The position numbers were made by a program, and so were the translations under genes. 64,000 nucleotides of DNA from Capsulimonas corticalis. GTDB taxonomy: Bacteria; Armatimonadota; Armatimonadia; Armatimonadales; Capsulimonadaceae. Of this stretch, positions 34,326 to 41,161 are shown piece after piece; position 1 is the stretch's first letter, and every line of letters begins with the position of its first letter. The DNA is taken from assembly GCF_003574315.2 (NCBI RefSeq), contig NZ_AP025739.1, forward strand, positions 558,001 through 622,000. The letters are read 5' to 3'. The notes under the pieces were generated by a model that saw nothing but the letters and a program-made list of their open reading frames with translations, was not told the DNA's origin and made no database searches.

Positions 34326-34386
34326 GTTTCTGTTTCATCACTGTTCGTGATTGATTATTAATCACTGTTCGTGATTGATGTTTTAA

Positions 34387-34501
<115 letters not shown>

Positions 34502-34569: not shown

Positions 34570-34637
34570 TTTGTATTGGATAAACAACGTACTATTTCTA
34601 TAATAGCATTTGTGAATGTGTTTATTGTAGTTTATTT

Positions 34638-37571
<2,934 letters not shown>

Positions 37572-37920: not shown

Positions 37921-37996
37921 TGGTGGAGGATAGGAGATTCGAACTCCTGACATCTACTTTGCAAAAGTAGCGCTCTACCAACTGAGCTAATCCCCC
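37921..37996 (-). tRNA. tRNA-Ala (anticodon TGC)
   Basis: The cloverleaf on the minus strand begins GGGGGATTAGCTCAG. The anticodon stem CTACT/AGTAG holds loop TTTGCAA with TGC, and the 3' end is encoded as ACCA. It is embedded in the 16S-23S spacer, as usual. Confidence 0.96.
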
Positions 37997-38046: not shown

Positions 38047-38123
38047 TGGTGGGCGCAACAGGACTCGAACCTGTGACCTCTCGGTTATCAGCCGAGTGCT
38101 CTAACCAACTGAGCTATGCGCCC
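38047..38123 (-). tRNA. tRNA-Ile (anticodon GAT)
   Basis: The cloverleaf on the minus strand begins GGGCGCATAGCTCAG. The anticodon stem CTCGG/CCGAG holds loop CTGATAA with GAT, and CCA is encoded. It is first of the two spacer tRNAs. Confidence 0.96.
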
Positions 38124-39997
<1,874 letters not shown>

Positions 39998-40616
39998 TAA
40001 TATTTAAAGACTGAAGCCGAAGCCCCAGATCCTAAAATCATGAGATGCGTTTGAGATACTATGGCCGGCTAGGTCCATAGTTCCAATAGTTTTGCTAAGT
40101 TTCCGCGAATATATGCTATAGTAAACTACACCAATATATCCATTATGCAGAAACCGCGGACTATCCCTGACCCCTTATTCGTTATTCGTTCCTCTCCAGA
40201 AGACTACAGAATTCTATAAATAGAAAGCCTTAGCCCTAGTATGAGGAGTACGCACTCAAAGGTTGTTGTTTACACGATTTCACTATTTAGTTATCAATGT
40301 GCATCGCCGTCCCGGACACTGCCCTATTCGGCACCCTGTCCAGGTTTCCAGAGTAAAGCTTGACAAATATCAAGATCAACCCCAGATTTCGAGCAATAAA
40401 AAACCACGCTACCCTGAGGATAGGCCTTGCGGTCATAGGTAAGAAAAGCGTGACTATAATTCAGATCGCTCTGAAATTCAGATTGCTCTGAAGCCAAACT
40501 CTGCTCACCCCCACTCGGTTACCCTTGCAGCGCGGAGGTTCGTTCTTGCTCTTATCGGCTCCGAAGTCTTCGCTTTACTCTCGTAAAGTTCGCTCTTCGG
40601 CTGACTGACGAGGGAT
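39998..40616 (-). other. rRNA leader region
   Basis: About 620 nt between the nearest promoter and 16S. It contains the 5' arm of the pre-16S stem (40275-40306), several small hairpins, and TATA-rich tracts, but no gene I can support. An antiterminator-like boxA may be present but is not clear-cut. Confidence 0.6.
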
Positions 40617-40646
40617 ATTATACACTCGCTTTGCAGCGTTTGTCAA
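40617..40646 (-). promoter_or_regulatory. rRNA promoter, first upstream of 16S
   Basis: Minus strand TTGACA (40646-40641), an 18-bp spacer and TATAAT (40622-40617): both hexamers are full consensus. Confidence 0.9.
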
Positions 40647-40767
40647 CCCCTGATCAGAAATCTTTTCAAATCTTGTTTTCGAAGCTTGCGATTTTCATCC
40701 AGCAAACTCTCGATCGAAGCATTCTTCGCTTCTCGTCGCCAGCGACTTTGGCTGAGCGGCGAGGAGT

Positions 40768-40797
40768 AGTATACTTGACTTTCGAAGTGTTTGTCAA
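40768..40797 (-). promoter_or_regulatory. rRNA promoter, second
   Basis: Minus strand TTGACA (40797-40792), an 18-bp spacer and TATACT (40773-40768), followed by ACTCCTCGCCGCTCAGCC, a stretch repeated at the third promoter. Confidence 0.9.
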
Positions 40798-40916
40798 CCC
40801 TTCGGGAAATCTTTTTTAGCAGCCTTTCTCAGGATTGCTTCGTATACGAGAAGGAGCTTCGGGGAAGCGGTCTTCGCTTCGTCACCGTCAGCGACTTTGG
40901 CTGAGCGGCGAGGAGT

Positions 40917-40946
40917 AGTATACGCTTTCTCGCTTGAGTTTGTCAA
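40917..40946 (-). promoter_or_regulatory. rRNA promoter, third
   Basis: Minus strand TTGACA (40946-40941), an 18-bp spacer and TATACT (40922-40917), with the same downstream ACTCCTCGCCGCTCAGCC as the second. Confidence 0.9.
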
Positions 40947-41041
40947 CCCTTGGAGAAAGTTTTTTAGCATACTTGGGAAGGAGCTTCGCTGGAGCCTTGC
41001 GGCTCCTTCGCTGCTGGCTCTTTGGCCCGGCAACGAGACGT

Positions 41042-41071
41042 AGTATACGGCATGCGGGCGTGCAGAGTCAA
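41042..41071 (-). promoter_or_regulatory. rRNA promoter, fourth and most distal
   Basis: Minus strand TTGACT (41071-41066), an 18-bp spacer and TATACT (41047-41042). The downstream part (ACGTCTCGTTGCC) has drifted from the other copies. Confidence 0.85.
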
Positions 41072-41121
41072 GTGATTCCCGAGGATTCTTGTGATTCTTT
41101 TCGAATATTTTTGTGAGTCGC

Positions 41122-41161
41122 AAAAACAGGGGCCGCGCTGTTGAGCGCGGCCCCTGTTTTT
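41122..41161. terminator. Bidirectional terminator upstream of the rRNA promoters
   Basis: An 18-bp perfect stem (41122-41139, 41144-41161) with loop GTTG, flanked by A5 and T5. It ends the small His-rich gene transcribed toward the rRNA promoters and so shields the rRNA operon from read-through. Confidence 0.9.

Follow-up and report, generated by a model that had tools for sequence, protein, structure and literature searches.

Transcription of one rRNA operon from several promoters is an established arrangement. The rrnA operon is preceded by four promoters in M. fortuitum and by five in M. chelonae, the number differing by species (PMC2904383, PMC10218544). The arrays of Capsulimonas corticalis described here resemble the mycobacterial ones in having several tandem promoters ahead of one rrn operon with one leader, but they belong to another phylum, precede all three rrn operons of the genome and, in a comparison with the published descriptions, stand out by uniform promoters with 18-bp spacers and a CTCG element. 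With the rrn P1-P2 promoters of E. coli they share the tandem order, A-tracts at the UP position, the absence of G beside the -10 box and a boxA downstream (PMC4696680, PMC4496709, PMC10250234); however, E. coli has two promoters where Capsulimonas has three or four, and Capsulimonas differs also by its 18-bp spacers and by a search for DksA that returned no match. Initiation at rRNA promoters of Firmicutes (Bacillus subtilis) is GTP-dependent, and the likeness to Capsulimonas extends to the presence of Rel, the lack of a match to DksA and the conservation of a G at the expected start (PMC9304144), whereas in Capsulimonas both the start site and the GTP dependence are predictions. Thus, the Capsulimonas arrays are a known arrangement in a new group, distinguished by their uniform build and by their occurrence at all operons. 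A literature search for work on the rRNA promoters of Armatimonadota found none.

The window (the whole stretch of 64,000 nucleotides that was analyzed) contains an rrn operon of the order 16S-Ile-Ala-23S-5S, toward which four upstream promoters point (Table 1), i.e. it carries an array in the sense of at least two tandem same-strand promoters upstream of 16S. Inspection of the minus strand confirmed what the preliminary description had reported for the four promoters, namely their coordinates, spacers that are all 18 bp long and start-to-start distances of 125 bp (P1-P2), 149 bp (P2-P3) and 151 bp (P3-P4), as well as a stretch common to the second and the third promoter, which reads ACTCCTCGCCGCTCAGCC. 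Every unit is built of an A-tract (UP-element-like), a promoter and a CTCG start element.

Table 1. Predicted elements of the window operon (window coordinates) and positions of the -35 boxes at the three rrn operons of the genome
Feature	Position	Strand	Remark
Promoter P1, TTGACT-18-TATACT	41042..41071	-	outermost; counterpart in rrn3, none in rrn2
Promoter P2, TTGACA-18-TATACT	40917..40946	-	
Promoter P3, TTGACA-18-TATACT	40768..40797	-	
Promoter P4, TTGACA-18-TATAAT	40617..40646	-	innermost; conserved across the family
P1 discriminator/start element ACGTCTCG	41034..41041	-	
P2 discriminator/start element ACTCCTCG	40909..40916	-	
P3 discriminator/start element ACTCCTCG	40760..40767	-	
P4 discriminator/start element ATCCCTCG	40609..40616	-	
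P1 A-tracts	41098..41112	-	5' of the -35 box, at -30 and -41
P2 A-tract, UP-element-like	40960..40965	-	~19 nt 5' of the -35 box
P3 A-tract, UP-element-like	40812..40817	-	~20 nt 5' of the -35 box
P4 A-tract, UP-element-like	40663..40666	-	~20 nt 5' of the -35 box
18-bp perfect inverted repeat, terminator-like	41122..41161		flanked by runs of A and T; sets the promoter array apart from the gene upstream
P1 transcript start-site hairpin	41008..41036	-	
P2 transcript start-site hairpin	40882..40911	-	
P3 transcript start-site hairpin	40732..40763	-	
Leader hairpin CTATCCTCAGGGTAG (CTATCC/GGGTAG), then CGTGGTTTTTT / CGTGGTTTTTTATTGCTC	40409..40423	-	in rrn1-3 and in G006
boxA-like antitermination element CACATTGATAACTAAATAGTG	40281..40301	-	downstream of all four promoters
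16S rRNA	38489..39997	-	
tRNA-Ile (GAT)	38047..38123	-	
tRNA-Ala (TGC)	37921..37996	-	
23S rRNA	34636..37571	-	
5S rRNA	34386..34501	-	
rrn1 -35 boxes, from 16S 5' end	-1074/-949/-800/-649		
rrn2 -35 boxes, from 16S 5' end	-937/-800/-649		
rrn3 -35 boxes, from 16S 5' end	-1077/-949/-800/-649		

The genome (7.65 Mb, single contig) possesses three rrn operons with four (rrn1), three (rrn2) and four (rrn3) promoters, and the spacer is 18 bp in 11/11 of them. An extended motif, TTGACN{19}TATANTANNYCTCG, which adds the downstream A-NN-YCTCG element, matched 11 times in 7.65 Mb, each time 5' of an rrn operon and nowhere else, while the reversed pattern used as a control gave 0 matches genome-wide; the promoter matches are far beyond chance. 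Absence of the array from the other operons had been named beforehand as the observation that would speak against it, and 3/3 operons were found to carry one. The identification of the elements as rRNA promoters is backed by where they lie, by their strand and by the fact that they recur at every rrn operon of the genome and in relatives.

Growth of the array by duplication of a unit of ~150 bp, as originally proposed, agrees with the alignments of the inner units (P2-P3: z 16.9 over 150 bp; P2-P4 and P3-P4: z 8.5), and by their sequence the middle units are clear duplicates; it does not clearly apply to the outermost unit, since P1 aligns to the others with z 3-4, mostly over the promoter itself, and appears barely related to them. 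The length of ~150 bp does not hold for relatives either, where units range from 105 to 188 bp. Whole units within the window operon have diverged to 42-63% identity. The most conserved promoter is P4 (99% identity among the three operons, 79% with a Capsulimonas MAG, 62% with the same-family genome G006). A comparison of rrn1 with rrn3 gives 92-96% identity for P2 and P3, from which we infer that these two operons have probably been homogenised. We propose that P4 would be the ancestral promoter and that the array would have grown as its middle units underwent unequal duplication several times.

The strict motif scan over 85k genomes identified a MAG of Capsulimonas, besides which two unrelated genomes gave a single match each, taken as probable chance. 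The sibling MAG has three such promoters, and the gene ahead of them matches, by eye, the gene upstream of rrn2. The same-family genome G006 has four promoters (spacers 17, 18, 18, 18) in units of 105-117 bp. Four promoters were also found in a sister-family genome (G017; units of 188, 122 and 148 bp), where a different start region suggests a separate expansion. There are 2 to 4 promoter matches, some of them overlapping, in families f15 and f21, and most other Armatimonadota sampled show 0-2 at the stringency used. When the regions upstream of 16S were sampled across the phylum (67 regions), all 85 promoter matches had the orientation of the rRNA genes and 0 the opposite one. Comparison of copy number among related genomes, suggested in the preliminary description, thus reveals variation from 0 to 4 promoters.

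The same description had singled out the 18-bp spacing. As a statistic this stands: the spacer is 18 bp in 7/7 distinct rrn promoters (naive probability 2.6e-6, though the promoters are related by descent), as opposed to 14 of 88 other near-consensus promoters (17 bp in 72, 16 bp in 2), a background drawn from among the matches listed in pattern searches covering part of the genome. Promoters of tRNA genes have 18 bp in 12/32 cases vs 14/88 in the background among the matches listed (p 0.013, related promoters being treated as independent). In relatives, however, rrn promoters use 17 bp about equally often (41 with 17 bp vs 34 with 18 bp across the phylum sample), so 18 bp is not essential. 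The spacer of E. coli rrn P1 is 16 bp.

The discriminator separates the promoter classes further. Compared with the background among the matches listed, tRNA promoters rarely have G at the first (1/32 vs 29/88) or the second base after the -10 box (1/32 vs 28/88, p 4e-4) and often have C at position 7 (16/32 vs 11/88, p 4e-5), with p values that again treat related promoters as independent. At the rrn promoters the second base is C or T, never G, and a G located 8 nt after the -10 box is conserved in 11/11; that this G is the transcript start is a guess from its conservation. In an order-wide search for non-rrn promoters with a YYTYG start element, using a pattern that took 16-17-bp spacers, 12 of the 20 examined sites lie directly 5' of tRNA genes. 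Together with the trends at the 32 tRNA promoters, this argues that the lack of G after the -10 box, CG near the start and more frequent 18-bp spacers are a sequence signature that marks stable-RNA promoters; as tRNA promoters carry it too, the 18-bp spacing belongs to the stable-RNA promoter design. In E. coli, C as the second base after the -10 box shortens the life of the open complex and matters for rRNA control (PMC4496709). In Capsulimonas, the discriminator appears to be a stronger pointer to regulated promoters than the spacer. Two further observations concern small RNA genes: at L168 (G004:C274:1700-3600) a sequence resembling, by eye, small SRP RNA (GGGTCAAGGAAGACAGCAACCC) follows a promoter that has the stable-RNA start element, and the C. 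corticalis genome has a cluster of 17 tRNA genes that spans ~9 kb and is separate from the rrn operons (G000:C1 1204505-1213169).

We consider it very likely that the four elements are rRNA promoters of the housekeeping (sigma70) type arranged as a tandem array. Each would combine near-consensus -35 and -10 boxes at 18 bp with a CTCG start element and a pyrimidine-rich discriminator that lacks G beside the -10 box, and the upstream A-tract of each unit may serve the C-terminal domains of the RNA polymerase alpha subunits. All of the promoters would be active and, independently of one another, would feed a common leader from positions 5' of the boxA antitermination site, so that initiation from several promoters would sum to a high rRNA output. 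Short-lived open complexes may result from the 18-bp spacing together with the discriminator, because of which rRNA output would track nucleotide supply, perhaps through the GTP level where transcripts begin with G, in the manner of Bacillus subtilis. What counts against this reading is that some relatives do without an array, having a single promoter and 17-bp spacers.

Regarding the regulators of the predicted GTP/ppGpp control, the genome encodes one RelA/SpoT protein, while a search for the DksA/TraR family gave no match in this 95.7% complete genome, with positive controls detected. The single match to a CarD-type domain lies inside a 1252-aa frame that is Mfd-like, as expected of Mfd, and a stand-alone CarD, on which rRNA promoters of mycobacteria depend, was not found in the genome search. 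Since Rel is present and neither DksA nor stand-alone CarD was found, GTP-level control at a G start, similar to B. subtilis, is tentatively the likeliest route, though we hold it with much less confidence than the array itself. A literature search found no doubling time for the organism.

A refinement of the tandem-array reading, rather than its opposite, is that the promoters are regulated differently, e.g. P4 being basal and the TATACT promoters P1-P3 growth-regulated. This is plausible, if somewhat doubtful: only P4 has TATAAT, it is the most conserved in the family and it is without a clear start hairpin, and there are precedents in M. fortuitum, where promoter usage varies by condition (PMC2443159), and in E. 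coli, where P1 and P2 are regulated differently (PMC4696680). However, the spacing and the start element are common to all units, and the differential use is a prediction from sequence.

An explanation of the 18-bp spacing as a device for supercoiling control appears unlikely. Spacers other than 17 bp can confer supercoiling sensitivity, and 18 bp is found in all rrn promoters of the genome vs 16% of the others among the matches listed, but rrn spacers of the phylum are 17 bp about as often as 18 bp, and the contrast between stable-RNA and other promoters is stronger at the discriminator than at the spacer.

The leader transcribed from the proposed array contains a boxA-like site with a score of 17/19, compared with 13-18 in most sampled leaders of the phylum and 9-13 on the reverse strand. 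It lies between the promoters and 16S, and its counterparts recur as CTTGAAAACTRAATAGYG upstream of 16S in most sampled Armatimonadota leaders, hence the predicted role in antitermination. The leader hairpin at 40409-40423 is near-identical in G006 and shows a change of a T-G to a T-A pair in rrn3; it was considered as an intrinsic terminator and rejected, the fold being unsupportive (z -0.68). At 40458-40491 the leader carries AATTCAGATYGCTCTGA as two tandem 17-nt copies, none of which was seen in the G006 leader.

The transcripts of most units are predicted to open with a hairpin, P4 being without a clear version. In a set of 13 units from the window genome and three relatives, 93% of the cells pair and both sides have changed in 4/9 pairs; this covariation score was reached by 0/500 shuffles and slid structures scored lower, in a test that leans in favor of the hairpin, as the structure was derived from the same sequences. 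In the phylum as a whole, folding is somewhat better in start regions than in the rest of the leader (p 1e-4 naive, 0.005 by family). We speculate, while regarding it as improbable, that duplication multiplied each promoter together with a regulatory RNA hairpin at the 5' end of the rRNA precursor; if so, a 5' hairpin kept by compensatory changes would control promoter escape, antitermination or precursor decay. That only the innermost promoter matters, tandem duplication having left the outer copies as neutral by-products, is very unlikely, for although promoter number varies between operons and relatives and the outer units are less conserved, neutral copies would be expected to decay, whereas the -35 box, 18-bp spacer, -10 box and CTCG are kept in every copy despite 42-63% unit identity, with compensatory changes in the start hairpins.

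The signature shared by rRNA and tRNA promoters is a testable candidate for growth control in an organism in whose genome DksA and stand-alone CarD were not found. Furthermore, the 11 near-uniform promoters, together with relatives that have 0 to 4 copies, provide a natural series, which could be used to ask whether rRNA output is set by how many promoters there are and not by how many operons.
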